Shown in pieces: positions 6,270-42,920 of a DNA stretch of 64,000 nucleotides. The stretch comes from Streptomyces sp. NRRL WC-3742. Its GTDB lineage: Bacteria > Actinomycetota > Actinomycetes > Streptomycetales > Streptomycetaceae. A program made the position numbers and the translations under genes. Location of the stretch: positions 62,001 to 126,000 of the forward strand of contig NZ_JOCF01000006.1 in NCBI RefSeq assembly GCF_000720635.1, read 5' to 3'. The notes beneath the pieces are model-generated. The model saw only the letters and a list, made by a program, of their open reading frames with translations. It was not told the origin of the DNA and searched no databases. How positions within the stretch are numbered: position 1 is the stretch's first letter; the number at the start of each line of letters is the position of its first letter.

Positions 6270-6308
6270 CCGCTCCCCGGACCGTGACCTGACCAGCCGC
6301 CCGGACGC

Positions 6309-6339
6309 CAGTTCCAGGGCCTCCTGCGGCCCGGAACTG
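6309..6339 (+). other. Hairpin in the citramalate synthase leader
   Basis: CAGTTCC-a-GGGCC at 6309-6321 pairs with GGCCC-GGAACTG at 6328-6339 around a 6-nt loop, with one bulged base. It ends just before the AAGGAGG ribosome site of the gene at 6356. It may be an intercistronic terminator/attenuator or a stabilising stem. Confidence 0.5.
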
Positions 6340-6355
6340 AGAGAAGGAGGAGGCA

Positions 6356-8056: not shown

Positions 8057-8093
8057 CGGCCGACGACTGACGGAAGCAGACAAGGGAGCCATC

Positions 8094-9122: not shown

Positions 9123-9152
9123 CGAACGATCAGATCAGTTGACACGAAAGGG

Positions 9153-9176
9153 AGTCGGGCTCCGCTGAGCCCGACT
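9153..9176 (+). terminator. Hairpin terminator after the KASIII-like gene
   Basis: AGTCGGGCTC at 9153-9162 pairs perfectly with GAGCCCGACT at 9167-9176 across a 4-nt loop, 30 bp after the stop codon and immediately before a SARP-type promoter. Confidence 0.75.
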
Positions 9177-9186
9177 GCACCAGCGC

Positions 9187-9218
9187 TCGAGCCCGATTCG
9201 AGCGGACCTTGGCATTCT
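9187..9218 (+). promoter_or_regulatory. SARP box and -10 element for the aromatase/cyclase unit
   Basis: Heptamers TCGAGCC (9187-9193) and TCGAGCG (9198-9204) are spaced exactly 11 bp, the direct-repeat layout bound by ActII-ORF4 and DnrI-type SARPs. CATTCT at 9213-9218 lies 8 bp after the second repeat, the known spacing to the -10 box in SARP-driven promoters. It sits between a terminator and the gene at 9262. Confidence 0.75.
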
Positions 9219-9261
9219 CGAACCGGCCGCCGCGTGCGGCGTGAACGAAGGAGAGCTCGCC

Positions 9262-10278: not shown

Positions 10279-10295
10279 TGTCCCTCCAGCGAGCG

Positions 10296-10326
10296 GAGAG
10301 CCGAGGCCGTCCGGGCCTCGGCTCTC
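10296..10326 (+). terminator. Hairpin terminator after the aromatase/cyclase
   Basis: GAGAGCCGAGGCC (10296-10308) pairs perfectly with GGCCTCGGCTCTC (10314-10326) around a 5-nt loop, 18 bp past the stop codon. A downstream promoter for the FAAL gene is therefore expected within 10327-10412. Confidence 0.75.
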
Positions 10327-10412
10327 CCGCGTTCCCAGCGCAAGGCTTCCTCGAGGGGCCGGGCGCACCATGCAGCCATGGAGGCGACAACCATGACGCG
10401 CGAGGGGGACGC

Positions 10413-12161
10413 ATGACCGGCTTCCGGAACTTCGCGGAACAGATCCAGGCCAGGGCCGCCGAGGCGCCGGGCAGGGAGGCACTGATCCTCCTGCCCGAGT
10501 ACGAGGGCAGGAGCCAGGCCGAGGCGGTGTCCTACCGGGCCCTGGACTCCGGGGCCCGGCGCCTGGCCGGCTGGCTCCAGGACCGGGGCGCCACCGGGGA
10601 GCGGGTGCTGCTCGCCCACTCCGACCGGCGGCTGTTCGCGATCAGCCTGCTCGCCTGCCTGTACGCGGGCGCGATCGCCGTGCCCACCGCGCCGCCGCGC
10701 GGCCGGGGCCACCACGCCGAGCGGATCGCCGGGATCGTCAAGGACGCCGCGCCCTGCCTGGCGCTCACCGACGCGGCCGAGGCCCCCGACCTGTCCCGGC
10801 TGCTGGCCGGCCAGGGCCACGGCTCCATCCCCTGCCTGGCCGCCGACGTGGTCCCGCCCTCGGCGCCCTTCACCGCGCCGCAGCTGGGCCCCGACTCGGT
10901 CGCCCTGCTGCAGTACACCTCCGGCTCCACCCGCGAGCCGCGCGGCGTCGTCGTCACCCACGGCAGCCTGACGGCCAACCAGCGGGCGATCGGGGCGGCG
11001 CTGCGCACCGGCCCGGCGGACGTGTTCGGCGGCTGGCTGCCCTTCCACCACGACCTCGGGCTGATCGGCCAGCTGCTCCACCCGCTGTGGCTGGGCGCCA
11101 CCTCGGTGCTGCTCACCCCGGAGGCGTTCGTCAAGCGCCCGCTGCGCTGGCTGGAGGCCATCTCGCGCTACGGCGTGACCGTCAGCGCGGCCCCCGACTT
11201 CGCTTACGACCTGTGCGTGCGGCGCACCGACGAGCACCCGCTGCCGGCCGGGCTGGACCTCTCCGGCTGGCGGGCCGCGGTGGACGGCGGCGAGCCGATC
11301 CGCTCGGCCACCTGGCGGGCCTTCGCCGAGCGCTTCGCCCCGGCCGGGTTCCGGGCCGAGGCCCTGACCGCCGGCTACGGCCTGGCCGAGGCGACCCTGC
11401 TGGTCGCCCTGGACACCGAGGGCGTCACCGGGGCGCGCACCCACCGCGAGGTGGACGCGGCCGCGCTGGAGCGCAACCGGCTGGTCGACGCCAGAACGGG
11501 CCGGCCCTCCAGATCGCTGGTGCCCGTGGGCCTGCCCGTGGAGCTGGACCTGCGCATCGTCGATCCGCAGAGCCTCGCGACCCTGCCCGACGGCCGGATC
11601 GGCGAGATCTGGGTGCGCGGCCAGGGCGTGGCCGCCGGCTACTGGCGCCGCCGCGGCGAGAGCGCCCAGACCTTCGGCCAGACCACCGCGGAGGGCGAGG
11701 CCGGCTACCTGCGCACCGGGGACCTCGGCGTCCTCCAGGACGGGCTGCTGCACGTCACCGGCCGACTCAAGGACGTGATCGTGGTGGCGGGCCGCAACCT
11801 CTACCCGCAGGACCTGGAGCAGACGGTGCAGCGCGTCAGTGCGATGTTCGGCTCGGCCACCGCTTTCGGCGTGCCCGGCGAGCGCGAACAGGTCGTCGTC
11901 ATCCAGGAACTGCGCGCCCAGAGCCGCTACCGCGTCGACTTCGCGGGGCTGACCGCGGCCGTCAAGGACTGCCTGGCCCGGGAGTTCGAGCTCCAGACCG
12001 GCGCCGTCCTCCTGGTGCGCCCGGGCACCGTGCGCCGCACCACCAGCGGCAAGGTCGAACGGGCGGCCATGCGCAAGCTCTTCCTGGACGGCCGGCTCAA
12101 GCCGCTGCACCAGGAAGTGAAGTCCGAAGTGGAACAGTTGCTCGTCAGGAGTCGTCCATGA
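10413..12161 (+). CDS. Fatty-acyl-AMP ligase (FAAL)
   Basis: 582 aa, ATG after GAGGGGGAC. Adenylation motifs are visible in order: LLQYTSGSTREPRGVVV (phosphate loop), WLPFHHDLGLIGQLL (typical of FAALs), the GYGLAEATL motif, YLRTGDLGVL, GRLKDVIVVAGRNLYPQDLE and the C-terminal RRTTSGKVER lysine region. FAALs activate a fatty or short acyl acid as acyl-AMP and pass it to an ACP rather than to CoA. It overlaps the acyl-CoA dehydrogenase gene by ATGA. The FAAL, dehydrogenase and ACP trio is a common way to make an unsaturated acyl-ACP; here it probably prepares a starter for the KASIII-like enzyme. The acid substrate is unknown. Confidence 0.85.
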   Translation: MTGFRNFAEQIQARAAEAPGREALILLPEYEGRSQAEAVSYRALDSGARRLAGWLQDRGATGERVLLAHSDRRLFAISLLACLYAGAIAVPTAPPRGRGHHAERIAGIVKDAAPCLALTDAAEAPDLSRLLAGQGHGSIPCLAADVVPPSAPFTAPQLGPDSVALLQYTSGSTREPRGVVVTHGSLTANQRAIGAALRTGPADVFGGWLPFHHDLGLIGQLLHPLWLGATSVLLTPEAFVKRPLRWLEAISRYGVTVSAAPDFAYDLCVRRTDEHPLPAGLDLSGWRAAVDGGEPIRSATWRAFAERFAPAGFRAEALTAGYGLAEATLLVALDTEGVTGARTHREVDAAALERNRLVDARTGRPSRSLVPVGLPVELDLRIVDPQSLATLPDGRIGEIWVRGQGVAAGYWRRRGESAQTFGQTTAEGEAGYLRTGDLGVLQDGLLHVTGRLKDVIVVAGRNLYPQDLEQTVQRVSAMFGSATAFGVPGEREQVVVIQELRAQSRYRVDFAGLTAAVKDCLAREFELQTGAVLLVRPGTVRRTTSGKVERAAMRKLFLDGRLKPLHQEVKSEVEQLLVRSRP

Positions 12162-13876
12162 TCGAAGGGGACCGGATCACCCGGCTGGAGAAGGCTTTCG
12201 GGCCGCTCTTCAGCGCCGACAATCCGATGGGCCAGCACGGCCTGCTCGCCGCCGACGCGCGCGGCGAGGTGCTGGCCGAGGCCGAGCGGGTGCTCGACGA
12301 GTTCGGCTTCAACGCCGAGTTCGTGCCCGCCGAGCTCGACGGGCGACTGACCAGACTGGACGAGCTGGGCCGGGTGCTGCGCCCGGTGTTCCGCCGCGAC
12401 GCCTCCTTGGGCTTCGGCTACGGGCTCAGCTGCTTCTTCGCCGCCGTCCCCGTGTGGGCCGGCGGCGACGGCGGCCAGCGCGCCCTGGCCGCCCGGCTGC
12501 TCCTCGAGGGCCGGCGGATCGCGGTCGTGCGGCACGAGGTGGCGCACGGCAACGCGTTCGTCCGCGAGGAGTTCGCGGCCGAGCCGAAGGCCGGCGGCTT
12601 CGTCCTCAACGGCACCAAGAGCGTGATCGCCAACGCCCGCACCGCCGGGGGCCTGGTCGTCTTCGCCCGCACCGGCGGCGAGGTGCCCGGCCGCGCCCAC
12701 TCGGTGCTGCTGCTGGACCGCGAGGCCCTGCCCGAGGCGGCCGTCGAGTACCTGGGTCGGCACGACACCACAGGGATGCGCAGCGTGGAGTTCGGCGGCA
12801 TCCGCGTCACCGACTGCCCGGTGCCGGGCTCCGCCCTGGTCGGCGGGCTCGGCGAGGGGTACGAGCTGTCGCTGCGCTCCTCGCTGGTGATCCGCGGGCT
12901 GATCCCGTCGATCGTGCTGGCCGGCGGGGACACGGCGCTGCGCACGGTGGCCCGCTTCGCCACCCGCCGGCGTGCGGACGGCCGCTCCTCGCTGGACGTG
13001 CAGCACGTCAAGGACGTCCTCACGGGCGCCTTCCTGGACCTGCTGGTCAGCGACTGCCTGTCGCTGGTGGCCACCCGGGCCCTGCACCTGCTGCCCAAGC
13101 AGATGAGCGCCTACGCGGCCACGGCCGCCTACCTGGCGCCCAAGCTGGTCGCGGAGGCGATGGAGGAGATGTCGGCCGTGCTGGGGGAGGAGACCTTCGC
13201 CGAGGACGGCGCGTACGCGATGTTCCGCAAGCAGCTGCGGGACCTGCCGGTCACCTCGCTCGGGCACGCGGGCAGCGCCGGACGGCAGGTCAGCATCCTG
13301 CCGCAGCTGCCCTTCTTCGCCCGGCACGCCTGGTTCGCCGACCCGGAGGCCCCGCCCGCGCTGTTCCGGCTGGAGGGCGACCTGCCACCGCTGAGCCTGG
13401 CGGACGCGGCCCTGCTCGGCGACGGTGACCCTCTCGCGGCCACTTTGGTGGCATGCACCGATCAACTGGAGAACGGCGGGCTGCTCTCCGACGCCGGCCC
13501 GGACGGCCCCGCCCTGCGCTTCCTCGCCCGCGCCTTCACCATCGAACTCGACGACCTGCGCAAGGCGTTCACCCGCATCGCCCTGGACGACCGCAAGGCC
13601 ATGGTCAGCCCGCACGCCTTCGGCCAGGCCGACCGCTACACCCTGGTGCTGGCCGCCGCCGCCTGCCTCGGCGTGTGGCGCGAGCAGCGCGACGGCGAGG
13701 ACGACTTCCTCGCCGACCCCAGCTGGGTCACCGCCGCCCTCTACCGCCTCGGCCGCCGCCTGGGCCTGCCGCTGCCCGATCGCCCCTCCGGAACCGAACA
13801 GCGGGTCCTGGCCGAGGTCCTGGCCCGCCTGCACGGCCGCCGCAGCCTCGACCTGTACGGGTCGGCGCTGGCCTGA
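12158..13876 (+). CDS. Acyl-CoA dehydrogenase-family flavoprotein (likely acyl-ACP desaturating)
   Basis: 572 aa, about 190 longer than classical acyl-CoA dehydrogenases. The core includes VRHEVAHGNAFVREEF, FVLNGTKSVIANARTAGGLVVFAR and DTTGMRSVEFGGIRVTDC (beta domain), followed by the helical FAD-binding half. A C-terminal extension beyond about residue 420 (LRFLARAFTIELDDLRKAFT onward) is helical and of unknown function. It is translationally coupled to the FAAL and followed by the ACP-AT gene. FAAL-linked members of this group act on acyl-ACP to put in a double bond; that role is inferred from context. It is distinct from the oxygenase-type relative at 3981. Confidence 0.75.
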   Translation: MIEGDRITRLEKAFGPLFSADNPMGQHGLLAADARGEVLAEAERVLDEFGFNAEFVPAELDGRLTRLDELGRVLRPVFRRDASLGFGYGLSCFFAAVPVWAGGDGGQRALAARLLLEGRRIAVVRHEVAHGNAFVREEFAAEPKAGGFVLNGTKSVIANARTAGGLVVFARTGGEVPGRAHSVLLLDREALPEAAVEYLGRHDTTGMRSVEFGGIRVTDCPVPGSALVGGLGEGYELSLRSSLVIRGLIPSIVLAGGDTALRTVARFATRRRADGRSSLDVQHVKDVLTGAFLDLLVSDCLSLVATRALHLLPKQMSAYAATAAYLAPKLVAEAMEEMSAVLGEETFAEDGAYAMFRKQLRDLPVTSLGHAGSAGRQVSILPQLPFFARHAWFADPEAPPALFRLEGDLPPLSLADAALLGDGDPLAATLVACTDQLENGGLLSDAGPDGPALRFLARAFTIELDDLRKAFTRIALDDRKAMVSPHAFGQADRYTLVLAAAACLGVWREQRDGEDDFLADPSWVTAALYRLGRRLGLPLPDRPSGTEQRVLAEVLARLHGRRSLDLYGSALA

Positions 13877-13926
13877 AACTCTCCGGGCCCGCGCCCGCCC
13901 CCGACCACCGCGAAGGAGTCCCTCCC

Positions 13927-15168
13927 GTGAACACCCCCCACCCGTCCGCACCGGAACCCGACTACCACGGCTGGCTGAGCGAGCGGCTGCGCCACTACCT
14001 GGGCCGCGACATCGCCGAGGACGTCCCGTTCACCACCTACGACCTCGACTCGGTCGCCGCACTGAGCCTCTACGGCGACATCGAGCAGGAGTTCGGCCCC
14101 GTGCTGGACCCGACCGACATCTGGCTCTACCCCACCATCCAGGAGCTCGCCGCCTACCTGGAGCTGCGCGACATCCGCCTCGGCAGCGGCCAGCAGGTGC
14201 GCGCCGCCTTCGTCTTCACCGGCCAGGGCTCCCAGCACCCGGGCATGACCTCCGGGCTCTACCTCAACTCGACCGGCTACCGCCGCTTCCTGGACGAGGC
14301 CGCCGCCGCGCTGTCCCCGTACACCGGCGTCTCCGTCGTCGACCTGATGCTCAGCCGCGACCGGCGCGTGCACCAGACCGCCTACACCCAGCCCGCCCTG
14401 TTCGCCGTCGAGTACGCCCTCGCCCGCACCCTGGAGGAGGCCGGCGTCCAGCCCGTCGCCGTCCTCGGCCACGGCATCGGCGAGTTCGCCGCGGCCGTGA
14501 TCTCCGGCGCCCTGACGCTGGCGGACGCGGCCAAACTGGTCACCGTCCGCGGCGCGTTCATGCAGTACCTGCCCGCCGGCGGCGGCATGACCGCCACCTG
14601 CCTGGCGCCCTACGAGGCCGCCGAACTGATCGTCGACGAGCCCGGGGTGGCGATCGGCGCGATCAACGCCGCCAAGGCGACCGTCCTGTCCGGCGAACTG
14701 GAGGGCCTGCGCCGCATCGAGCGCAAGCTGGAGGAGCGGGGCATCGCCTGCAAGGCGCTGGAGGTCACCCACGCCTTCCACTCGCCGCTGATGGAGCCGA
14801 TGCTCGCCAAGTTCGAGGCCGTCACCCGCCGGCTGCCCGGTGGCGCCTCCCGGCTGCCGTACTACTCGACCGTGCGCGGCCGCCTGACGAGCGAGCCGCT
14901 GTATGCGCCGTACTGGACGGCCCAGGTCACCTCGCCCGTGCGCTTCGCCGACGCCGCCCGGCAGATGGTCGACCAGCAGGCCCTGACCCACATCGTGGAG
15001 ATCGGCCCCAAGGTGGTGCTCACCCCGTTCCTGCGCCGCATCGCCGGCAACGAGGGCCCCTCCTGCCTGGGCATGTGCCGGGGCCCGCAGACCAACGCCG
15101 TCGACCTCGCGGGGGTGCTCTCCGCCCTGGACGCCGGCCCGCTGGCCCACCCCCTGGTGAGGGCCTGA
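13927..15168 (+). CDS. ACP-acyltransferase fusion with degenerate AT active site
   Basis: 413 aa, GTG start. Residues 12-85 form an acyl carrier domain with the phosphopantetheine serine in YDLDSVAAL (Ser42). Residues 93-395 form a FabD-like acyltransferase: VFTGQGSQHPGM, NAAKATVLSG and HAFHSPLMEPML are intact. The nucleophile motif GHSxGE, however, reads GHGIGE (181-186): Gly183 (codon GGC, 14473-14475) replaces the catalytic Ser. Normal AT self-acylation should be impossible. The fusion follows the FAAL and dehydrogenase, so its ACP may carry the activated starter while the AT domain serves as docking or proofreading scaffold. An intact separate AT is at 24896-26674. Confidence 0.82.
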   Translation: MNTPHPSAPEPDYHGWLSERLRHYLGRDIAEDVPFTTYDLDSVAALSLYGDIEQEFGPVLDPTDIWLYPTIQELAAYLELRDIRLGSGQQVRAAFVFTGQGSQHPGMTSGLYLNSTGYRRFLDEAAAALSPYTGVSVVDLMLSRDRRVHQTAYTQPALFAVEYALARTLEEAGVQPVAVLGHGIGEFAAAVISGALTLADAAKLVTVRGAFMQYLPAGGGMTATCLAPYEAAELIVDEPGVAIGAINAAKATVLSGELEGLRRIERKLEERGIACKALEVTHAFHSPLMEPMLAKFEAVTRRLPGGASRLPYYSTVRGRLTSEPLYAPYWTAQVTSPVRFADAARQMVDQQALTHIVEIGPKVVLTPFLRRIAGNEGPSCLGMCRGPQTNAVDLAGVLSALDAGPLAHPLVRA

Positions 15169-15169
15169 G

Positions 15170-16003
15170 ATGGCGGCAGCGGGAGGGGGACTCCCGCGGC
15201 CGCGCCAGATGGCCGGGCCGGACGGCCCCTGGGACCCCGTGCGCCAGGACCTCGCCGGCACCGGCACGGCCCTGGTGTACGGGGTGCTCACCCAGTGGAG
15301 CGTCCACCTGCGCGAGCCGGAGCGGCTGCGGGAGGTGCTCGGTCGGGACTGGCCGCGCTACCAGCGCATCGGCCATGCCCGGGCGAAGGAGCGCTTCCTG
15401 GCCTCGCGGCTGCTGCTGCGCCGCACGGCCGCCGAGGTGATCGGCACCACCCCGGACCAGGTGGACCTGGCGTACGAGCCCGGCGGCCGCCCGTACGTGC
15501 GCGGCTGCGACCAGATCGACGTCAGCCTCAGCCACACCCAGGACGTCCTGGTGGTCGGCGTCACCCGGCGCGGCCGCATCGGCGTGGACGTGGAGCTGGC
15601 CGACCGGCGGATGGCGGGCACGGCCTCGGAGGCCCAGGGCTTCACGCCGTACGAGCGCGAGGCGCTGGACGCGGACGCGGCGGAGCGCCGCAACGACCTG
15701 CTGGTGCGGCTGTGGACGCTCAAGGAGGCGTACAGCAAGGCGCGCGGGCAGGGGCTGCGGTTCCGCTTCACCGAGTTCGGCTTCGCGCTGGACGGCGAGC
15801 AGGCGCGGCTGGTCAGACCGGACGGCGGGCCGGTCGCGGACGGCTCGGCCTGGACGTTCGGCACGGTCGCCCTGGAGGGGCGCTTCGTGGTCAGCGTCGC
15901 CGTGTTCGACGCGGGCTTCGGCAGCGGCAGCGACCTGTCGGTGCAGACGGTGCTGGACGAGGGGCTGCTGGAGGCGCTGCTGAACTCCTCGGGGCGCAGC
16001 TAG
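15170..16003 (+). CDS. 4'-phosphopantetheinyl transferase (Sfp type)
   Basis: 277 aa, starting one base after the previous stop. The Sfp-family motifs are in order: KERFLASRLLLRR, VSLSHTQD, GVDVELADR (metal-binding acidic pair) and LWTLKEAYSKARGQGL. It attaches phosphopantetheine from CoA to the serine of carrier proteins, here the ACP at 24528-24782 and the ACP domain at 13927-15168. It closes the FAAL, dehydrogenase, ACP-AT operon and converges on the response regulator gene, with only 21 bp between stop codons. Confidence 0.9.
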   Translation: MAAAGGGLPRPRQMAGPDGPWDPVRQDLAGTGTALVYGVLTQWSVHLREPERLREVLGRDWPRYQRIGHARAKERFLASRLLLRRTAAEVIGTTPDQVDLAYEPGGRPYVRGCDQIDVSLSHTQDVLVVGVTRRGRIGVDVELADRRMAGTASEAQGFTPYEREALDADAAERRNDLLVRLWTLKEAYSKARGQGLRFRFTEFGFALDGEQARLVRPDGGPVADGSAWTFGTVALEGRFVVSVAVFDAGFGSGSDLSVQTVLDEGLLEALLNSSGRS

Positions 16004-16024: not shown

Positions 16025-16639
16025 CTACGGGATCCAGCCGGCGTCCTCCGCGATGCGGATGGCGTCGACCCGGTTGCGGGCGTTGAGCTTGGTGACGATG
16101 GCGGTCAGGTAGTTCTGGACGGTGCCCTTGGAGAGGTACAGCGAGGCGGCGATCTCGGTGACGGCGGCGCCGTGCGCGGCCTGCCGCAGCACCTCCAGCT
16201 CGCGCGGGGACAGCGGGTTGGCCGGCGCGTCCCAGGCGGACATCGCCAGCTGAGGGTCTATCACCCGCTGGCCCTGCGCCACCGCCCGTACCGAGCGGGC
16301 GAGTTGCTCGGGCGGGGCGTCCTTGAGGAGGAAGCCGCACACGTGCGCGGCCATCGCCCGGCGCAGGGTGCCGGGACGGCCGAGGCTGGTGAGGATCAAC
16401 GCCCGGCAGCTGGGCAGGCGTTCGCGCAGGGCGGCCGCCGCGGTGAGGCCGTCCATGCCGGGCAGGTCGATGTCGATGACCGCGACGTCGGGCCTGGTCT
16501 CGAGCGCCGTCTTCACGATGATGTCGCCCCGGTCCACCGAGGCGACCACCTCGAAGTCCGGCTCGAGCTCGAGCAGGGCGACCAGCGCGCCGCGGATCAT
16601 CTGCACGTCCTCGGCGAGGAGGATCTTCGTCGACAACAT
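16025..16639 (-). CDS. LuxR/NarL-family response regulator
   Basis: 204 aa. The receiver domain has acidic pocket E10-D11, phosphoacceptor Asp56 in VIDIDLPGMDG, and the conserved Lys in FLLKDAPPEQL. The C-terminal HTH is NPLSPRELEVLRQAAHGAAVTEIAASLYLSKGTVQNYLTAIVTKL, a LuxR-type DNA-binding domain (shown in part: LSPRELEVLRQAAHG). It is encoded directly after the histidine kinase, with a GAGGGA ribosome site. The pair is downstream of the YcaO gene and on its strand, so it may regulate the RiPP cassette or the surrounding cluster; the target is not evident. Confidence 0.9.
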   Translation of the reverse strand: MLSTKILLAEDVQMIRGALVALLELEPDFEVVASVDRGDIIVKTALETRPDVAVIDIDLPGMDGLTAAAALRERLPSCRALILTSLGRPGTLRRAMAAHVCGFLLKDAPPEQLARSVRAVAQGQRVIDPQLAMSAWDAPANPLSPRELEVLRQAAHGAAVTEIAASLYLSKGTVQNYLTAIVTKLNARNRVDAIRIAEDAGWIP

Positions 16640-16695
16640 GCAATCCCTCGTGGTCGGGGTCCGTGGTCGGGTTCGCCCGGTGCCGGAAAATTCTC

Positions 16696-17877
16696 TCAGG
16701 CCACCGCCTGCGGAACGTCATTGGGAGTGGCGGTGGCCGGCACCTGGGGCTTGAGCGGTGCCTCGACCAGCAGGTGGAACCGGCCGTCCTCCCGGACGCC
16801 CGCCTCCACCCGGCCGCCGATGGCGGCCAGCCGGGTTTCCAGGTTCCCGATCCCACTGCCGCTCCAGGGGGCCGGCGGCTGGACGGTCTTGGCCACGCCG
16901 TCGTTCACCAGACGGAGAAAAACCGTTTCTTCGTCGGAGTGGGCACGGATTTCGCAGTGCTGCACTCTGCTGTGGCGCAGGATGTTGGTCACCCCCTCGC
17001 GCAGCGCGGTGGCCAGCACGGTGTCCACCACCGGGTGCATCCGCGAGCAGGTGACCTCCACCTCGGCCTTCACGTCCGCCGACTTCAGCGTCGAGGCGAC
17101 GGAGTCGACCTCGGCCGCCAGGGACATCTCCCGGTAGCCGCTGGCCACCAGCCGTACGTCGGCCAGCGCCTGCCGGGAGATGTCCAGCACCCCGGCGATC
17201 TCCTCCCGCGCCCGGTCGGGCCGGCTGGTGACCAGCCGATTGACCAGCTCGGTCTTGAGGGTGATCGACGAGAGGCTGTAGCCGAGCAGGTCGTGCAGGT
17301 CCCGGGCGAAGCGCAGCCGTTCCTGGAGCACCGCCGCCCGGGCGCGTTCCTCCCGGGAGGAGAAGACCTCCTCCACGAGGTCGGCCAGCCGGGTGAGTCC
17401 GTAGATGACCAGGCCCGTCAGCATGGTCGACTGCAGTACGTAGACCGTCAGCAGCGGTGCCACGCCCGTGATCCAGGCTTCGGCGAACGCCGACAGACAG
17501 CAGACGGCGTACAGCGTCCACCCGAGCCGCCGGGGGAGCAGCAGCAGGCAGGAGCCGGCCAGGCACCCCAGCATCCCGCCCCAGTCGGCGCCGAAGAGCA
17601 GCATCGGACCGACGGTGAACGCCGCCTGCCAGAGCAGCATCACGATCCGCCGCCGCATCGGCCACCGGCGGGCCTTCGAGGAGGAGTTGAGGAGCTGGAT
17701 GGAGAAGACGGCTGCGGCGCACGCCAGGGCCACCAGGGCCTTGCGGCCTCCGAAGCTGTCCCGCAGCACGTTGTTGAAGGCGATCAGGCAGAAGCAGAAG
17801 AGGGCGAAGACGGTGATGCCCCGGGCCAATCGGGGGGCCGGGAGATCGGCCGAGGACGTGCCCGTTCTGCCAGCCAT
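16696..17877 (-). CDS. Sensor histidine kinase (HisKA_3)
   Basis: 393 aa from the ATG at 17877, chosen for the GGGGGGAAG tract in front of it; earlier ATGs at 17892 and 17916 lack one. Five or six hydrophobic segments fill the first 170 residues. The dimerisation/phosphoacceptor box is RFARDLHDLLGYSLSSITL with the phosphorylated His, followed by the REGVTNILRHS N-box and SGSGIGNLETRL G-box. It belongs to the DesK/NarX-like class that pairs with LuxR regulators. No large extracellular sensing domain is present, so the signal is probably membrane-borne. It lies 140 bp after the YcaO gene. Confidence 0.88.
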   Translation of the reverse strand: MAGRTGTSSADLPAPRLARGITVFALFCFCLIAFNNVLRDSFGGRKALVALACAAAVFSIQLLNSSSKARRWPMRRRIVMLLWQAAFTVGPMLLFGADWGGMLGCLAGSCLLLLPRRLGWTLYAVCCLSAFAEAWITGVAPLLTVYVLQSTMLTGLVIYGLTRLADLVEEVFSSREERARAAVLQERLRFARDLHDLLGYSLSSITLKTELVNRLVTSRPDRAREEIAGVLDISRQALADVRLVASGYREMSLAAEVDSVASTLKSADVKAEVEVTCSRMHPVVDTVLATALREGVTNILRHSRVQHCEIRAHSDEETVFLRLVNDGVAKTVQPPAPWSGSGIGNLETRLAAIGGRVEAGVREDGRFHLLVEAPLKPQVPATATPNDVPQAVA

Positions 17878-18016
17878 ACCGCTTCCCCCCATGTCAGCGC
17901 CCCGGTCGGCGTGCATGCTACCGCGCGCTCAGGCAGAGCGTCACGGAAACGTACGGGACCGTCGCCGTCCGTTCAAGCTTCTTGTCGTATGAACATATGA
18001 AGACTCAGCCAACTCG

Positions 18017-20287
18017 TCAGACGAACAAGGGAATCGGGTTGAGCTCCGCGTCGACGGTCGGCCCGGTGAGTAAACCGAGCCGTACCGGCACGTCGAAGAT
18101 ACGACCCGGGGCGAATCTCGCCCAGAAGTGGCGCATCCCGGGGGCGATGACCTTGACGACCGGGATCGCCACGTCGGGCCGGGTCTGGTCGAGCACGAGC
18201 AATTCCATCCCCTTCGCCCGGACCAGCCGTTCCGCCTCCGCCACGTCCTCCCGCAGGTCCCCGGACGGCCGGTAGTCGTAGTCCGAGGGCCCGCGCGGAA
18301 CCTGACCGGAATCGGGCAGCAGATATGGCTGGTTCGCGACGGTCGCCGTCGACCACCAGGCGACCAGGTCCGGATCGGTCGTCCGCGGAGCACCGTCCGG
18401 GCTGCCCCCGGACGGGAGGAACTGACCCATTTCGGTCAGGGCCCTCCGCAGCGCCAGCCTCGGATCGTGGTGCGCCCCGAAGCCGAACGTGATCTCCTCC
18501 GCCGGCCGTCCCACCTGGCGGGACAGCGCCACGAACACCGGGATCCCGAAGTCCGAGGTGACGTCCAGCACCCAGACCTGGCGGCCCGTCATCGCGTACG
18601 CCTGGCGCAGCGTCGCCGTCCACGGGTCGTCGAAGGCGTCCAGGTCCACCGCCGGGTGGCGGGTGCGGTTGTACCACCACAGCGCCACCGCGTCCCGCTC
18701 CACCAGCTCCAGAAAGCCCTGGACGATCGCGTCCTCCAGGCTGCTGCCCGCCGCGTTCCCGTTGGAGTCCGCCCACAGCCCGTCCGAGGGCCGCCCCGGC
18801 GCGTTGCCGTAGTACAGCAGGGAGGTCGGCAGCAGCCGCTGCCGGCCGGTGGTGAGCGACTGCACCGGGGTCCAGTCCACCGGCCTGTCGGGGTCGAACC
18901 GCTCCGGCACCTGCTGGAACGCCGAACCGCTCGCGTTCCAGCGCGCCCGCTCCCGGAACTGCCGCTCCGAGTACAGCTGGCAGTCGTTCGGGTGCAGCGC
19001 CACCGGGCCCAGGGCGCGCATCGATTCGCGCACCACCGGCTCGTCCCCCTGTCGCGTCCCGCTGTAGCGCTCGGCCGCCTCGCACAGCGCCCCCACCTTG
19101 GCATCCAGCTCGGTGGCGCCCTTGCCGCCGCTCAGCGAGCGCAGCCCGGCCCGCAGCCCGCCCAGCGAACCGCTGCGCATCGCCAGATTGCGGCCCGACA
19201 CGTAGCGGTTGATCCCCACCGGCGCCCACTCGTCCCGGCGGACCTCCTCGACGATGCCCGTCACCGGGCTCACCAGGTGCTCGTGCCGGCGCAGCATCTC
19301 CGCCGGGGCCAGCGCCCGGTGCCCGCCCCCCGTCTCCGGCGACTTCGGGCGCGGCCGCACCACCAGCGGGCCCAGCACCTGCCGCGCCACCAGGTCCGGA
19401 TCGCCGCAGTCCGGGCACTGCGGGCGCCGGACCACCGCGTGGTGACGGCTGCGCAGCGTCGCCGTGTCCAGGGTGCAGACCGCGTCGTCCTCGACGCCCC
19501 GCGCCCCCGCCAGCCACCTCGCCGCCGCCAGCACCGCCGCCTGCAGGCCCATCGCCCGCCCGGCCGCCAGCGACGCCTCCGGCCGCGCCACCGGCCCCGG
19601 GCGGCCCAGCGCCCGCTGCAACGGGATCTCGGAGCGCCGGTGGCCCCACAACCGGTGCGCCAGACAGGACCAGCAGGGGCCCGCGGCCGGGCGGAACACC
19701 GGCCCGATCCACGGCTGCGCCCCGCACGGGCGCGCCAGCAGCCAGGGCGCCCCCGCCGCCAGGTGCTCGGCGTTGATCCGCTCCAGCTCCGGGTGCAGGT
19801 AGTCGTCCGTCAGCACCAGGGTCAGCACCTCGCTGCCCGGCCCGGCCTCCTCGCCCCTCGCGAGCACCCGCAGCCCCGAGTCCCGGCACGCCTGGCGCGC
19901 CGGCTCCGGCTCCGGGCGGCCCAGCGTCACCACCCTGACGGCCGCCCGCGCGAGCGAACTGTCGGCCCCGTCCAGGCCGAGCAGGTCCCAGTACGCGAGC
20001 GCCGCCTCGTCCTCCGCCGGCCGGTGGTAGCCCAGCAGCTTGGCCTGGGCGAGACGGGCCAGGACGCGGCCCGCCTCCCCGGGAGTCATCGTGTCCGCCG
20101 CCTCGTCGAGCACCCGCTCCAGCGAGCGGGTGCCGTCCAGCAGCGGGGCGAGGCGCTCGACGAGCCGCCCGGCCACCGCCGTGACGCCGTTGGCGGAGAG
20201 CAGGTACGTCGCCTCGCCCGGTACCACTTCAGCCCGCAGATGCCGCTTGAACCCCAGCGGCAGACCTCTGCCCCCCGTGTCCGCCAT
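18017..20287 (-). CDS. Fused TOMM cyclodehydratase: RRE, ThiF-like (zinc) and YcaO domains
   Basis: 756 aa. Residues about 8-95 form a PqqD/RRE-like leader-binding domain. The middle part is an ocin-ThiF-like domain with two zinc pairs, CWSC (about 205-208) and CPDC (about 291-294). From about 350 to the end is the YcaO domain with AAERYSGTRQGDE and SLEDAIVQGFLELVERDAVALWW, ending NPIPLFV, a variant of the Pro-rich YcaO C-terminus. Such proteins use ATP to turn Cys, Ser or Thr of a precursor peptide into azolines. The precursor gene is immediately upstream, five bases away. No FMN dehydrogenase is nearby, so azolines may stay unoxidised or be processed elsewhere. Confidence 0.85.
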   Translation of the reverse strand: MADTGGRGLPLGFKRHLRAEVVPGEATYLLSANGVTAVAGRLVERLAPLLDGTRSLERVLDEAADTMTPGEAGRVLARLAQAKLLGYHRPAEDEAALAYWDLLGLDGADSSLARAAVRVVTLGRPEPEPARQACRDSGLRVLARGEEAGPGSEVLTLVLTDDYLHPELERINAEHLAAGAPWLLARPCGAQPWIGPVFRPAAGPCWSCLAHRLWGHRRSEIPLQRALGRPGPVARPEASLAAGRAMGLQAAVLAAARWLAGARGVEDDAVCTLDTATLRSRHHAVVRRPQCPDCGDPDLVARQVLGPLVVRPRPKSPETGGGHRALAPAEMLRRHEHLVSPVTGIVEEVRRDEWAPVGINRYVSGRNLAMRSGSLGGLRAGLRSLSGGKGATELDAKVGALCEAAERYSGTRQGDEPVVRESMRALGPVALHPNDCQLYSERQFRERARWNASGSAFQQVPERFDPDRPVDWTPVQSLTTGRQRLLPTSLLYYGNAPGRPSDGLWADSNGNAAGSSLEDAIVQGFLELVERDAVALWWYNRTRHPAVDLDAFDDPWTATLRQAYAMTGRQVWVLDVTSDFGIPVFVALSRQVGRPAEEITFGFGAHHDPRLALRRALTEMGQFLPSGGSPDGAPRTTDPDLVAWWSTATVANQPYLLPDSGQVPRGPSDYDYRPSGDLREDVAEAERLVRAKGMELLVLDQTRPDVAIPVVKVIAPGMRHFWARFAPGRIFDVPVRLGLLTGPTVDAELNPIPLFV

Positions 20288-20292
20288 CGCGG

Positions 20293-20580
20293 TCAGCCGA
20301 CCAGCGCCGCGGACCAGCTGCCGGTGCAGTTCGAGGCGAACCCCACGCCCGGCACGTCCAGCTCCTCGATCAGGACGGTGTCGGCGTCCCCGACCAGTCC
20401 GGCCAGGTAGATCGGCTCCCCGGCCGACAGCCCGAACTCGGCCAGCACGGCCACCGGGTCGGCCGCGTAGCGCTGCGCCAGCTCCGGCTCCAGACCGCTG
20501 CGGACGGTCAACTCGGCGAAACGGCGGTCCTCCTGGGTGACGCTCACGCGGGCACTGGTGTCGCGGGCGATGGTCTTCAT
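20293..20580 (-). CDS. Candidate TOMM/RiPP precursor peptide with NHLP-like leader
   Basis: 95 aa, ATG preceded by AGGAGGCACCCC. The N-terminal two thirds resemble nitrile-hydratase-like leaders: the stretch LEPELAQRYAADPVAVLAEF is a typical helical DPxAVLxEFGL motif. After IEELDVPGVG comes the tail FASNCTGSWSAALVG with one Cys, one Thr and several Ser, the residues a YcaO cyclodehydratase acts on. The gene is five bases upstream of that enzyme and probably co-transcribed. The leader/core boundary is not certain; DVPGVG or a site just before it is a guess. The product has not been recognised as any known RiPP. Confidence 0.7.
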   Translation of the reverse strand: MKTIARDTSARVSVTQEDRRFAELTVRSGLEPELAQRYAADPVAVLAEFGLSAGEPIYLAGLVGDADTVLIEELDVPGVGFASNCTGSWSAALVG

Positions 20581-20822
20581 GGGGTGCCTCCTGAGTCGCG
20601 ATACCGACCGGTCGTGGTCCCGTTCGGTTGTGGACCAGGAGTCTGCGGAAAAGCCGGGCCCCGGGCCCAGTGGCGGACTCACCCTCGCGGCATGACATTT
20701 TCACGGTTCCCCTCGTGACGCCCTCACTGGGCCTCACGGCGTGCTGGTGCCAGGCTCGACCCCATGCTTCGACCACGACCGCCGGGGGACGACCGACGGG
20801 AGGCCGGAAAGGGGAGAACACC
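20581..20822. promoter_or_regulatory. Divergent promoter region, RiPP precursor / SARP activator
   Basis: 242 bp between the RiPP cassette (leftward) and the SARP gene (rightward). TCGACCC (20756-20762) and TCGACCA (20769-20775) are near-identical but 13 bp apart, so they do not have the canonical 11-bp SARP spacing. A GGGCCC-rich palindrome lies near 20660-20675. Co-regulation of both units from here is plausible, not shown. Confidence 0.45.
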
Positions 20823-21617
20823 ATGGACATCAAGATCCTGGGGCCGTTGTCGGCCACTGAGTACGGAGTGTCGATCGTTCCGAGTGCGGCCAAGCCGCGC
20901 CAGATCCTCGCACTGCTCGCACTTCAGGCGGACCGGGTGGTCACCGTACCCACCCTGATGGAGGAGATCTGGGGGACCGAGGTGCCGCGCAGCGCCGCGA
21001 CCACCCTCCAGACGTACATCCTCCAGCTGCGCCGCCGCATCGCCCTCGCCCTCGCCGGCGACAGCGACACCCACGCCAAGGAGGTGCTGGTCACCCAGCA
21101 CGGCGGCTACCTGCTGCGCGTCCAGCCCGGACAGACCGACGTCCAGGAGTTCGAGCAGCTCGCCGCCTCCGGCCGCGCCGCCTACGACGCCGCCGACTAC
21201 CGGGCCGCCTCCGAACTCCTCGGCGGCGCCCTCGCCCTCTGGCAGGGCCCGGCCCTGGTGGACGTCAAGGTCGGCGACGTCCTCGAACTGGAGGTGCTGC
21301 GCATGGAGGAGGGCCGGATGGCCGCCCTGGAGCGCCGCCTCGACGCCGACCTGCGCCTGGGCCGGCACAACGAGCTCATCGCCGAACTGCGCGTCCTGAC
21401 CGCCCGGCACCCCATGCACGAGTCCTTCTGCGGGCAGCTGATGCTCGCCACCCACCGGGCCGGCGGCGCCTGGCGCGCCCTCGAGGCGTACCAGCGGCTG
21501 CGCACCACGCTGGTGGACGAACTCGGGCTGGAACCCTCACCGCGCCTGCAGCGGCTGCACCGCGCCGTCCTCCAGGGCGACCCGGAGCTCGACCTGGTGG
21601 CGACCACCAGCTTCTGA
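20823..21617 (+). CDS. SARP-family pathway activator
   Basis: 264 aa, the length of the small SARPs such as ActII-ORF4 and DnrI. The N-terminal winged-helix OmpR-like DNA-binding domain runs from MDIKILGPL through KPRQILALLALQADRVV and ATTLQTYILQLRRRI. The bacterial transcriptional activation domain follows (FEQLAASGRAAYDAADYRAA onward to ELGLEPSPRLQRLHRAVL). SARPs recruit RNA polymerase at direct repeats about 11 bp apart; suitable repeats lie before the KS-alpha gene and before the aromatase/cyclase gene. It stands directly upstream of the minimal PKS and is the most likely cluster switch. Confidence 0.92.
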   Translation: MDIKILGPLSATEYGVSIVPSAAKPRQILALLALQADRVVTVPTLMEEIWGTEVPRSAATTLQTYILQLRRRIALALAGDSDTHAKEVLVTQHGGYLLRVQPGQTDVQEFEQLAASGRAAYDAADYRAASELLGGALALWQGPALVDVKVGDVLELEVLRMEEGRMAALERRLDADLRLGRHNELIAELRVLTARHPMHESFCGQLMLATHRAGGAWRALEAYQRLRTTLVDELGLEPSPRLQRLHRAVLQGDPELDLVATTSF

Positions 21618-21977
21618 GTCGCCTCTGCTGAACTGCCCGGCTCCGAAGGCGAGTTCTCGCAGCTCACGCACACTCCACGAACACCCGAGCGGCCGTCGAG
21701 GGCCCGCCCGAACCATGGCGGAACCGGTGAACGGCGGCACGCCACAAGCGGGAAGACGCCGCCAAGGCACAGCCCGCCCGGGGCGGAAGACGGGAATCAG
21801 CCCCAACTCCGCCCCGGGCCACCGGAACACCGGAGCACCGGAGCACCGGAGCACCTGAACACCGGAAGCACCGACACAGCCAGCGGCCCGACCGAAGGGA
21901 ACCACAGTGGTCCGCACCGTTCCGACCGGCAGCAGCCCGCAGCTGCGGCCGGCCACCCAGAAGGCGAGGTGAAGCAG
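21618..21977 (+). promoter_or_regulatory. Promoter region of the minimal PKS with a SARP box and short tandem repeats
   Basis: 360 bp without a gene. CCGAGCG (21685-21691) and TCGAGGG (21696-21702) are 11 bp apart, and AACCAT at 21711-21716 lies 8 bp further as a weak -10, matching SARP promoter geometry. At 21820-21876 a run of about six imperfect CACCGGAG units occurs. The AAGGCGAGG ribosome site closes the region. Confidence 0.65.
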
Positions 21978-23246
21978 ATGCGCAGAGTCGTGATCACGGG
22001 CCTCGGGGTCGTCGCCCCCGGCGGCGTCGGCGTGAAGAACTACTGGGAGCTGCTCACCGCGGGCCGCACGGCCACCCGCACCATCTCCTTCTACGACGCC
22101 TCCCCGTTCCGCTCCCGGGTCGCCGCCGAGTGCGACTTCGACCCCCGCGCCGCGGGCCTGAGCCCGCAGGAGATCCGCCGGCTCGACCGGGCCGCGCAGT
22201 TCGCGGTCGTCTCCACCCGCGAGGCCATCGCCGACAGCGGCCTCGACCTCGCCGCCCTCGACCCCTCCCGGGTCGGCACCTCGCTGGGCAGCGCGGTCGG
22301 CTGCACCACCAGCCTGGAGCGCGAGTACGTCGTCGTCAGCGACGGCGGCAAGAAGTGGAACGTCGACCACGAGTACGCCGTCCCCGAGCTGTACCGGCAC
22401 TTCGTGCCCAGCTCGATGGCCGCCGAGGTCGGCTACGCCGCCGGCGCCGAAGGCCCGGCCGTGGTCGTCTCCACCGGCTGCACCTCCGGCCTGGACTCGC
22501 TCGGCCACGCCGTCGAGCTCATCCGCGAGGGCACCACGGACGTGATGGTCGCCGGCGCCACCGAGGCCCCGATCTCCCCGATCACCTCGGCCTGCTTCGA
22601 CGCCATCCACGCCACCACCCCGCGCAACGACACCCCCGAGAGCGCCTGCCGGCCCTTCGACCGCACCCGCAGCGGCCTGGTCCTCGGCGAGGGCGCGGCC
22701 ATCCTCATCCTCGAGGAGCTGGAGAGCGCCCGCCGGCGCGGTGCCCACATCTACGCAGAGATCGCCGGCTTCGCCTCCCGCTGCAACGCCTTCCACATGA
22801 CCGGCCTCAAGGAGGACGGCCGGGAGATGTCGCAGGCCATCGACGCGGCCATGGACGAGGCCCGCCTCGGACCGGACGCCCTCGACTACATCAACGCCCA
22901 CGGCTCCGGCACCAAGATGAACGACCGCCACGAGACCGGCGCCTTCAAGCGCAGCCTCGGCGAGCACGCCTACGCCACCCCGATCAGCTCCATCAAGTCG
23001 ATGATCGGCCACTCCCTCGGCGCCATCGGCTCCCTGGAGATCGCCGCCTGCGCCCTGGCCATGGAACACGGCGTCCTGCCGCCCACCGCCAACCTGCACG
23101 AGCCCGACCCGGAACTCGACCTCGACTACATCCCGCTGGTCGCCCGGGAGCAGAAGACGGACACCGTGCTCAGCGTCGGCAGCGGCTTCGGCGGGTTCCA
23201 GAGCGCGATGGTGCTGGCCCGGCCGGAGAGGAAGGACGCAGCATGA
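21978..23246 (+). CDS. Type II PKS ketosynthase alpha (KS-alpha)
   Basis: 422 aa from ATG 21978, with GCGAGG before it; a GTG nine bases upstream is less well placed. The active site is VVSTGCTSGLDSLGHA with Cys168, and the decarboxylation histidines lie in INAHGSGTKMND and SMIGHSLGAIG. It extends the chain from malonyl-ACP in a heterodimer with the chain length factor, whose gene overlaps by ATGA. It heads the KS-alpha, CLF, ACP, AT operon, probably SARP-driven. Length and motifs are normal for the family. Confidence 0.95.
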   Translation: MRRVVITGLGVVAPGGVGVKNYWELLTAGRTATRTISFYDASPFRSRVAAECDFDPRAAGLSPQEIRRLDRAAQFAVVSTREAIADSGLDLAALDPSRVGTSLGSAVGCTTSLEREYVVVSDGGKKWNVDHEYAVPELYRHFVPSSMAAEVGYAAGAEGPAVVVSTGCTSGLDSLGHAVELIREGTTDVMVAGATEAPISPITSACFDAIHATTPRNDTPESACRPFDRTRSGLVLGEGAAILILEELESARRRGAHIYAEIAGFASRCNAFHMTGLKEDGREMSQAIDAAMDEARLGPDALDYINAHGSGTKMNDRHETGAFKRSLGEHAYATPISSIKSMIGHSLGAIGSLEIAACALAMEHGVLPPTANLHEPDPELDLDYIPLVAREQKTDTVLSVGSGFGGFQSAMVLARPERKDAA

Positions 23247-24460
23247 GCGCCACCACCGTCGTCACCGGCCTGGGCATCGCCGCGCCCACCGGGCTCGGCA
23301 CCGAGGACTACTGGAAGGCCACCCTCGCCGGTGAGAGCGGCATCCGCCCCATCACCCGCTTCGACGCCGACCAGTACCCCTCCCGCCTCGCCGGGGAGGT
23401 GCCCGGCTTCGTCGCCGAGGACCACGTCCCCAGCCGGCTGATGCCCCAGACCGACCACATGACCCGCCTCGCGCTCGCCGCCACCGAATGGGCCGTCAAC
23501 GACGCCGGCCTCGAGGCCGGCCAGCTCCCCGAGTTCGGCATGGGCGTGGTCACCGCGGCCTCCGGCGGCGCCGTCGAGTTCGGCCAGCGCGAGCTCCAGC
23601 AGCTCTGGAGCAAGGGCAAGGAGTACGTCAGCGCGTACCAGTCCTTCGCCTGGTTCTACGCCGTCAACACCGGCCAGATCTCCATCCGCCACAAGATGCG
23701 CGGTCCCAGCGGCGTCCTGCTCAGCGAGCAGGCCGGAGGCATCGACTCCCTCGGCCACGCCCGCCGCCACGTCCGCAAGGGCATCCCGCTGGTCGTCTCC
23801 GGCGGCGTCGACGCGGCCGTCTGCCCCTGGGGCTGGCTGCCGCAGATCGCCTCCGGGCGTCTGAGCACCGTCAACGACCCGGCCCGCGCCTTCCTGCCCT
23901 TCAGCGCGGACGCCGCCGGCCACGTCGCCGGCGAGGGCGGCGCCATCCTCGTCGTCGAGGACGCCGACTCCGCCCGTGAGCGCGGCGCCCGTCAGATCTA
24001 CGGCGAGGTCGCCGGCTACGCCGCCACCCTCGACCCCGCCCCCGGCTCCGGCCGCCCGCCCGGGCTGCGCCGCGCCGCCGAGACGGCCCTCGCAGACGCG
24101 GGCCTCACCCCGGCCGACGTGGACGTGGTCTTCGCCGACGCCGCCGGCGTCCCCGAACTCGACCGCGCCGAGGCCGAGGCCATCACCGGGATCTTCGGCG
24201 ACCGGGCCGTGCCCGTCACCGCGCCCAAGACCATGACCGGGCGCCTGCTCGCCGGCGGCTCCGCCCTGGACGTCGCCACCGCGCTGCTCTCCCTGCGCGA
24301 CGGCGTCGTCCCGCCCACCGTCAACGTGGGCGCCGCCGCCCCCGAGTACCGGCTCGACCTGGTCACCGAGGTCCGCGAGGCGCGGCTGCGCACCGCACTG
24401 GTGCTCACCCGCGGGTACGGCGGCTTCAACGCCGCGCTCGTGGTCCGCAAGGCGTCCTGA
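23243..24460 (+). CDS. Chain length factor (KS-beta)
   Basis: 405 aa. It has the same thiolase fold as KS-alpha but with Gln163 in place of the active-site Cys, in VLLSEQAGGIDSLGHA, the signature of chain length factors. It pairs with KS-alpha and, by gating the shared tunnel, sets the polyketide length. It is translationally coupled to KS-alpha (ATGA). Chain length cannot be read with confidence here, although the ActIII-like ketoreductase and didomain cyclase suggest an octaketide-like first-ring path. Confidence 0.94.
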   Translation: MSATTVVTGLGIAAPTGLGTEDYWKATLAGESGIRPITRFDADQYPSRLAGEVPGFVAEDHVPSRLMPQTDHMTRLALAATEWAVNDAGLEAGQLPEFGMGVVTAASGGAVEFGQRELQQLWSKGKEYVSAYQSFAWFYAVNTGQISIRHKMRGPSGVLLSEQAGGIDSLGHARRHVRKGIPLVVSGGVDAAVCPWGWLPQIASGRLSTVNDPARAFLPFSADAAGHVAGEGGAILVVEDADSARERGARQIYGEVAGYAATLDPAPGSGRPPGLRRAAETALADAGLTPADVDVVFADAAGVPELDRAEAEAITGIFGDRAVPVTAPKTMTGRLLAGGSALDVATALLSLRDGVVPPTVNVGAAAPEYRLDLVTEVREARLRTALVLTRGYGGFNAALVVRKAS

Positions 24461-24527
24461 AACCGTCGACGCCCCGCCCGCTCCTGTTTCGAGGAACCCC
24501 ACCACCCGTACGCAGAGAGGACCCGTC

Positions 24528-24782
24528 ATGCCCATCACGACCGAACTCACCCTCACCGACCTGACCCGGATGCTGCGCGAGTGCGCCGGTGAGGAGGAGG
24601 GCATTGACCTCGACGGCGACGTCATCGACACCCCGTTCATCGAGCTCGGCTACGACTCGCTGGCGCTCCTCCAGGTCATCGGGCAGGTCCAGCGCGAGTA
24701 CGGCGTGATCATCCCGGACGACGCCGTCGTCGACGCCGAGACCCCCCGCGCGCTGCTCCAGCTGATCAACGGCGCCGCCTGA
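24528..24782 (+). CDS. Type II PKS acyl carrier protein
   Basis: 84 aa, ATG after AGAGAGGACC. Four-helix carrier with the phosphopantetheine site in FIELGYDSLALLQVIGQV and a helix III region VIIPDDAVVDAETPRALL, as in actinorhodin-type ACPs. It holds the growing chain for KS-alpha/CLF and must be activated by the PPTase at 15170-16003. Standard third gene of the minimal PKS. Confidence 0.94.
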   Translation: MPITTELTLTDLTRMLRECAGEEEGIDLDGDVIDTPFIELGYDSLALLQVIGQVQREYGVIIPDDAVVDAETPRALLQLINGAA

Positions 24783-24790
24783 GCCGCCGC

Positions 24791-24824
24791 CGGCCGCCGC
24801 CCCGCCCGAACGGCGGGGCGGCCG
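24791..24824 (+). terminator. GC-rich hairpin between ACP and AT genes
   Basis: CGCCCCGCC pairs with GGCGGGGCG across CGAAC, extended by CGGCC/GGCCG with a small bulge. It may lower read-through into the AT gene. Confidence 0.5.
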
Positions 24825-24895
24825 CGTTCCTGGTTTCCGCCGTCGCCCGAGTCTCGCCCCGCCCCGCCTCGCCTCGCCTCGCAAGGAGAGCACGG

Positions 24896-42621: not shown

Positions 42622-42920
42622 CGCCGAACCTCCACATGACGAATCGCCATCTGACGGTACGTCAGATAGATTCACGCTTAACGATGTCGGGGCTCGACGA
42701 TAGGCGCGCATCGAATCCTCGGGACAGGCAGTTCATCCGCACACCGACGAACTTTGCCAAGACTTGACCGATCGTGCTGGAACCATTCCGGACATGTCCT
42801 TCCAAGGTGACGGCGGCGGACGGGATTCCGGTTTGACCGGGGCGCTGTGCGGGTTGCATCGTTCCCACCCGAACGTTGCGTCGACCGTGGCGCGGTGACC
42901 GGGAGGAAAAGCGAACTGAC
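42622..42920. promoter_or_regulatory. 299-bp divergent region, RHS toxin / VCBS-ricin protein
   Basis: No convincing gene. It holds promoters for both large secreted proteins and a GGGAGG tract 15 bp before the ATG at 42921. No operator-like palindrome stands out. Confidence 0.4.

Follow-up and report, generated by a model that had tools for sequence, protein, structure and literature searches.

Known systems and the locus under study

Peptide autoinduction through a two-component system is known from several settings, and in both lanthipeptide autoinduction (NisRK, SpaRK) and agr-type signalling a peptide, its modifying enzyme, a histidine kinase (HK) and a response regulator (RR) are combined with an autoregulated operator. 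The same set of parts, its operator being autoregulated by prediction, is found in the cassette described here, which lies in a 64,000-nucleotide stretch of Streptomyces sp. NRRL WC-3742 (G000:C6:62001-126000, on a 156-kb contig of an 8.74-Mb genome; this whole stretch is referred to below as the window). Its gene order is a Streptomyces antibiotic regulatory protein (SARP) gene, divergent from a gene for a 95-aa precursor peptide that is followed by a fused RiPP recognition element (RRE)/YcaO gene, an HK gene and an RR gene, the whole set within a type II polyketide synthase (PKS) cluster. It differs from the NisRK, SpaRK and agr systems in encoding a YcaO enzyme rather than one for lanthionine or thiolactone chemistry, in its SARP output, in having no recognised exporter and in the differing chemistry of the clusters with which it is partnered. 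We argue below that the cassette is most likely the on-switch of antibiotic-type clusters and not part of the antibiotic.

The cyanobactin enzymes LynD, TruD and MusD offer the nearest comparison on the side of chemistry, since they are homologous fused leader-binding/YcaO proteins; LynD (4v1t, E 1e-169) and TruD align end to end with the window protein, and MusD does so in two stretches. Cyanobactin systems have proteases, whereas none is annotated in the window cassette, which, unlike the cyanobactin cyclodehydratases, has HK, RR and SARP neighbours, precursor motifs of the LVIEDL type and unrelated cores. On the side of function, goadsporin is a product with its own cluster, and not a cassette nested in polyketide clusters together with an HK, an RR and a SARP. 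According to the main text of Cox et al. 2015 (PMC4603692), this Streptomyces thiazole/oxazole-modified microcin (TOMM), an azole-bearing ribosomally synthesized and post-translationally modified peptide (RiPP), promotes the secondary metabolism and morphogenesis of actinomycetes at low concentration, which makes it, among the papers listed, the closest precedent for an azole RiPP acting on secondary metabolism; a word search of the same main text found ‘polyketide’, ‘SARP’ and ‘histidine kinase’ absent. Among the matches listed from open-licence PMC literature without preprints, none concerned YcaO-made peptide pheromones controlling polyketide genes, and peptide autoinduction that uses YcaO chemistry as the switch of a polyketide-type cluster appears to be new.

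Why should such a switch matter? A large number of antibiotic clusters stay silent in cultured strains. Should the cassettes be on-switches, the DNA would spell out the inducer in the form of a short core peptide, and a single operator pattern would locate both the switch and its target cluster.

The cassette and its precursor peptide

The cassette and its divergent neighbour comprise the following genes of the window:

20293..20580, minus strand: precursor peptide, 95 aa, with NHLP-like leader, recognition motif VLIEEL and a core of about DVPGVGFASNCTGSWSAALVG
18017..20287, minus strand: fused RRE/leader-binding/YcaO cyclodehydratase of the LynD/TruD type, 756 aa (domain matches)
16696..17916, minus strand: membrane HK (HisKA_3), putative peptide sensor (domains; hydropathy and domain divergence of the family)
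16025..16639, minus strand: NarL/LuxR-type RR (receiver and GerE domains)
20823..21617, plus strand: SARP activator, divergent from the precursor gene (BTAD and Trans_reg_C domains)

An earlier note, made from the letters of the window, had described a TOMM-type cassette on the opposite strand between a phosphopantetheinyl transferase (PPTase) gene and the SARP/minimal PKS genes, with PKS genes on both sides. Annotation bears out this layout, including the two-component system and the nesting in a type II PKS cluster, as well as the precursor-like 95-aa gene itself. The precursor ends in the tail FASNCTGSWSAALVG, and its leader scores 44.3 bits against NCBIfam TIGR04351 (TOMM_nitrile_2, a family of putative TOMM peptides), below the curated cut-off of 65; the label ‘NHLP-like’ (for nitrile hydratase leader peptide) is thus fair as a description of resemblance, but formal membership of TIGR04351 is not reached. 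The claimed fused cyclodehydratase is equally well founded, with Pfam YcaO at E 7e-101 and scores above cut-off for both NCBIfam TIGR03604 (SagD) and TIGR03882 (leader-binding). A fused leader-binding and YcaO cyclodehydratase therefore adjoins the precursor, as in azol(in)e RiPPs (TOMMs, or linear azol(in)e-containing peptides), and the window core holds Cys/Ser/Thr residues as candidate azoline sites; azoline formation on this core by the LynD-type enzyme is what the sequence predicts. The earlier note had also stressed that the cassette has no dehydrogenase, protease or exporter of its own, and this holds: the azoline dehydrogenase of other cassettes has no match anywhere on the 156-kb contig, and the annotation of the span 16025-20822 includes neither a protease nor an exporter.

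Precursor matches were found in 26 of the 297 genomes searched, the window's own included, and at 18 loci in named genomes, of which those of Kitasatospora carry the closest homologues. Many cassettes have precursor candidates without an NHLP/TIGR04351 leader. Those reached through the operator described below are open reading frames (ORFs) of 42-81 aa that start 70-142 nt downstream of it (213 in L158) and had been unseen by homology; they have a motif of the LVIEDL type, and their cores include ALFTVCV, LCFCRAA and CICWS, the ORF picker having favoured this motif, so that motif frequency is not an independent result. The candidate of L114 has no such motif, and the ORFs picked in L111 and L114 are implausible as precursors. 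Cores may be very short (LTFCTRQ in L102) or repeated: the L031 precursor holds VTSSCNFTHGPIP four times, with one copy changed, and that of L042 holds FTNFTHA four times. In L111 and L113, two repeated core segments per precursor were seen.

A proposed operator for two divergent promoters

The intergenic region shared by the precursor and SARP genes, to which the earlier note had already pointed, turned out to hold the key regulatory element. Amid otherwise dissimilar DNA, the pattern RTGAN5TCAY-N9-RTGAN6CACTG is conserved 5' of the precursors, that is, by comparison, at the cassette's own promoter. In the window it is laid out as follows:

20668..20704, minus strand: composite operator, boxes 2 and 3 (RTGAN5TCAY-N9-RTGAN6CACTG), the sole exact match in the genome
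20715..20729, plus strand: mirror operator, box 1 (GTGAN6CACTG), facing the SARP gene (mirror-box comparison)
20668-20682, 20692-20704 and 20715-20729: the three operator boxes, read from the window sequence
20640..20645, minus strand: putative -10 hexamer (CAGACT) for the precursor operon, 22 nt downstream of CACTG
20751..20756, plus strand: putative -10 (CAGGCT) of the SARP gene, 21 nt after the mirror CACTG, identified by eye, the SARP-side -10 being less regular

Of the 48 loci found by homology, 38 carry the operator exactly and 44 at no more than 2 mismatches, and three more (L082, L086 and L093) have it with a 10-base spacer, the chance expectation within the window being 0.03 matches at up to 2 mismatches. 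Across the 297 genomes there were 42 matches in 40 genomes (the window's own, with its single exact occurrence in 8.74 Mb, included), as against 0 for a reversed control pattern. Read one by one, these matches comprise 18 known cassettes, 19 YcaO cassettes that the precursor search had missed and 5 sites elsewhere, three of which stand before a SARP gene (in G034, in G043 and, as a second site, in G044), one at a precursor-HK pair (G035) and one at a dehydrogenase-HK-RR set (G036); G036 and G043 have a YcaO gene elsewhere in the genome.

A hexamer CAnAnT lies 22 nt after CACTG as a consensus across 63 loci, a spacing by which the -35 region of the precursor promoter would coincide in part with box 3. 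Where the SARP gene is divergent, the mirror box (CAGTGN6TCA on the precursor strand) was found in 28 of 46 loci, versus 0 of 20 loci without such a gene (Fisher p 1e-6), at a spacing of 25 or 46-48 nt. The RR of the cassette is the candidate protein to bind the operator. Secondary operators, at 0-2 mismatches, also stand before distant SARP genes in L094, L097 and L159 and, in L110-L113, before a gene behind the RR gene with 30-37% identity to part of the azoline dehydrogenase. The YcaO gene of L151 is some 12 kb away from a precursor candidate (16194-16343) that precedes the HK gene and has an operator of its own.

Recurrence of the cassette and its partner clusters

The final set comprised 70 loci, 67 with a YcaO gene, of which 48 were found via homology and 19 via the operator. 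Left out were L098, L099 and L101 (precursor-like matches without a cassette of the window's type), L030 and L047 (duplicates of L078 and L090), L169 (a distant YcaO) and L170 and L171 (short stretches only). Twenty plasmid records matched the YcaO protein over 80% or more of its length, and 8 of them were examined; H3, near H2, was not among these. In the comparison of synteny that the earlier note had proposed, the order precursor, YcaO, HK, RR recurs beside a SARP gene in dozens of genomes, and so is more than chance. Neighbourhood maps repeatedly gave SARP, diverging from precursor, YcaO, optionally dehydrogenase, HK and RR. As in a peptide autoinducer system, an HK and an RR are encoded alongside the precursor and modifying enzyme in 64 of the 67 YcaO loci, and a SARP gene lies no more than 12 kb from the YcaO gene in 56. 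An azoline dehydrogenase homologue is present in 35 of the 67, though not in the window's group. In a phylum-wide sample, matches at E 1e-60 occurred in 5 of 396 genomes (the window's own included), four of the five being from the window's family. The nearest YcaO genes examined outside Streptomyces in the plasmid collection, from Thalassospira and Nostoc, have neither a SARP gene nor an HK-RR pair beside them; the Nostoc locus has a large sensor-kinase gene downstream. Among the shared neighbour clusters ten were annotated, one of them as a major facilitator superfamily (MFS) transporter present in 3 loci, and transporter genes also occur in the partner clusters of NBC_01351 and of two among NBC_01260, NBC_00008 and NBC_01003.

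What does the cassette stand next to? In the window, the partner cluster consists of:

5103..16003, plus strand: starter/acyl genes of the PKS cluster (CoA transferase, HMGL/LeuA-like, KASIII, fatty acyl-AMP ligase (FAAL), acyl-CoA dehydrogenase (ACAD), acyl carrier protein-acyltransferase (ACP-AT) and PPTase)
9241-10278, plus strand: 345-aa ORF without separate annotation, in the starter/acyl stretch
about 10413-12161, plus strand: FAAL, in the same stretch
about 12158-13876, plus strand: ACAD, in the same stretch
15170..16003, plus strand: PPTase (domain annotation)
21686..21700, plus strand: possible SARP box, a CGAG direct repeat of 11-bp period before KSalpha, picked out by eye on the SARP repeat rule
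21969..23246, plus strand: ketosynthase alpha (KSalpha; domain annotation)
21969..26674, plus strand: KSalpha, chain length factor (CLF), ACP and AT protein of the type II PKS, the presumed target genes (annotation)

The CoA transferase III, HMGL/LeuA-like and KASIII genes at 5103-10278 suggest a dedicated, unusual starter unit for this PKS.

Close relatives of the window's KSalpha, FAAL, ACAD and PPTase were found near 22, 31, 35 and 33 of the 67 loci, respectively, all four counts being lower bounds because many flanks are short. When only loci flanked by 7 kb or more on each side are considered (n = 37), 20 have a ketosynthase match of any kind and 35 a ketosynthase or acyl-pathway match, so that the cassette is not found mostly away from PKS genes in relatives, an outcome that the earlier note had named as fatal to its view. 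The accompanying chemistry nevertheless differs: the cassette adjoins p-aminobenzoic acid (PABA)-synthesis, diiron-oxygenase and KS-CLF genes on the NBC_00335 plasmid, Phe-aminomutase, acyl-carrier and sugar genes in NBC_01260, NBC_00008 and NBC_01003, Trp halogenase and Trp dioxygenase together with an adenylation domain in NBC_01351, and a VlmB-like protein in NBC_00887, while each stretch of the six annotated plasmid records has at least one ketosynthase-type gene. The cassette thus accompanies several kinds of polyketide-like or acyl-type cluster. When KSalpha labels were placed on a quick YcaO tree (65 rows), they changed 8 times versus 18.4 in shuffles, i.e. they are clustered with some switching, part of which may reflect short flanks.

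Divergence of the core beside a constant PKS

Thirteen loci carry the window's PKS, defined by a KSalpha more than 85% identical to that of the window, and provide a natural comparison of the peptide with its surroundings. Their mean pairwise identity falls from KSalpha (0.91), RR (0.83), CLF (0.82) and SARP (0.81) through YcaO (0.64), HK (0.59) and leader (0.52) to 0.25 for the core, compared with 0.21 (sd 0.02) for shuffled cores. Such variation beside a constant PKS would be surprising in a part joined to a constant polyketide, and is what would be expected of a private signal. The sensor belongs to a family whose HK N-terminal half is hydrophobic, with 3-5 membrane segments in 53 of 60 members by a simple hydropathy count. 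Coevolution of core and sensor was also considered, and the partial Mantel test returned no significant result.

Proposed mechanism and alternative explanations

These observations are best explained if the peptide is taken to be the regulator's signal, as it may be, a reading that was absent from the earlier note. The LynD-type enzyme would put one or more azolines into the short, hypervariable C-terminal core of the precursor, and the mature peptide would exit the cell by a putative export route, to be sensed by the membrane HK of the same operon. The phosphorylated RR would then bind the operator between the precursor and SARP genes and fire both divergent promoters, one providing positive feedback on the precursor-YcaO-HK-RR operon and the other yielding the SARP, which would turn on the PKS genes. 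That the window holds an azoline-peptide autoinducer cassette, with an RR that activates the SARP gene as well as the peptide operon, we regard as probable, if far from assured. The broader proposal, according to which a large family of hypervariable and private azoline-peptide pheromones, each with its own HK, forms a plug-in on-switch for polyketide- or acyl-type antibiotic clusters across Streptomycetaceae via one bidirectional operator that drives peptide operon and SARP alike, is more tentative and falls slightly short of an even chance.

Several results weigh against this signalling model. Neither an exporter nor a maturation protease is recognised in the cassette, and the loci are kin to one another, so that their counts are not independent events. 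One homology-found locus, L100, has no operator; the exact mirror box is missing in 18 of the 46 loci with a divergent SARP gene; and G034 has an operator and a SARP gene yet no YcaO match at E 1e-40. The YcaO of L169, 40% identical and outside the family, has no HK, RR or SARP match near it. Core similarity does not track that of the HK sensor once relatedness is removed (partial r 0.049, with 79 of 500 permutations as high), and the correlations of the core with the kinase part (r 0.10, 12/500) and the RR (r 0.09, 17/500) are weak, some core boundaries in this test having been roughly cut. Since it is common for the sensor part of an HK to diverge faster than its kinase part, the family's 31% versus 52% identity in sensor and kinase parts is no more than consistent with the model. 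The repeated cores of L031 and L042 would equally fit a product made in quantity, and the ketosynthase or acyl genes at 35 of the 37 well-flanked loci give the partner clusters something in common, so that a chemical link may exist.

The earlier note had envisaged either a hybrid of polyketide and azoline peptide or two co-regulated products, and the two halves of this claim have fared differently. The second is the chief rival of the autoinducer model, even if we consider it rather unlikely: the azoline peptide would be an antibiotic or effector in its own right, the two-component system would sense something else, and the shared operator would merely time both products. It would account for an operator shared with the SARP gene, for the multi-core precursors, for the dehydrogenase homologues in 35 of 67 loci and for the absence of an established exporter-sensor pair, but less readily for a core that shows almost no conservation among loci sharing one partner PKS, for the almost invariable presence of HK and RR alongside YcaO in the analysed set, for cores as short as that of L102, or for the L151 precursor candidate, which is paired with an HK rather than with YcaO. 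The hybrid, in which the azoline peptide would carry an acyl or polyketide chain as in goadvionin and the lipolanthines, gains weight from the acyl-pathway and ketosynthase matches at well-flanked loci and from the relatives of the window's FAAL, ACAD and PPTase near 31, 35 and 33 of the 67. It is nonetheless improbable and finds no support in the comparison, given a core identity of 25% (near the shuffled level of 21%) beside a KSalpha identity of 91%, and partner chemistry that extends to a Trp halogenase with an adenylation domain and to a VlmB-like protein, though both of these records also hold ketosynthase genes. Least probable is an intracellular role, with the precursor or modified peptide acting inside the cell, e.g. 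on the RR, the HK or the SARP, without being secreted; it shares the same regulatory linkage and suits a cassette in which neither exporter nor protease is recognised, but the hydrophobic N-terminal half of the HK, with its 3-5 membrane segments in most members, suits a ligand outside the cell or in the membrane.

Further observations on related loci and the window

At several loci the arrangement is elaborated. In L152, L157, L162 and L166, the cassette has at least two adjacent HK matches, a hint that several signals or receptors may be in use. On the NBC_00335 plasmid (L109:25599-29852), a second YcaO and a TfuA-like protein are encoded beside another RR/HK pair adjoining the cassette, possibly as a thioamide version of the same logic. 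In L145 and L148 the operator lies directly 5' of a SARP gene; the cluster there encodes AT-like and ACP-like proteins, a second SARP, a PPTase and an acyl-CoA dehydrogenase, and no YcaO gene occurs within the stretch around the operator. A system different from the azoline cassette is represented by L098, L099 and L101, where genes for NHLP-like peptides (a tandem pair in both L098 and L099) adjoin five conserved genes (clusters c33-c37) and genes for proteins about 950-1050 aa long. In the window itself, outside the cluster, a 2434-aa protein with a pretoxin-HINT domain (35407-42711, minus strand) adjoins a 1280-aa protein with a ricin-type lectin domain (42876-46718, plus strand).

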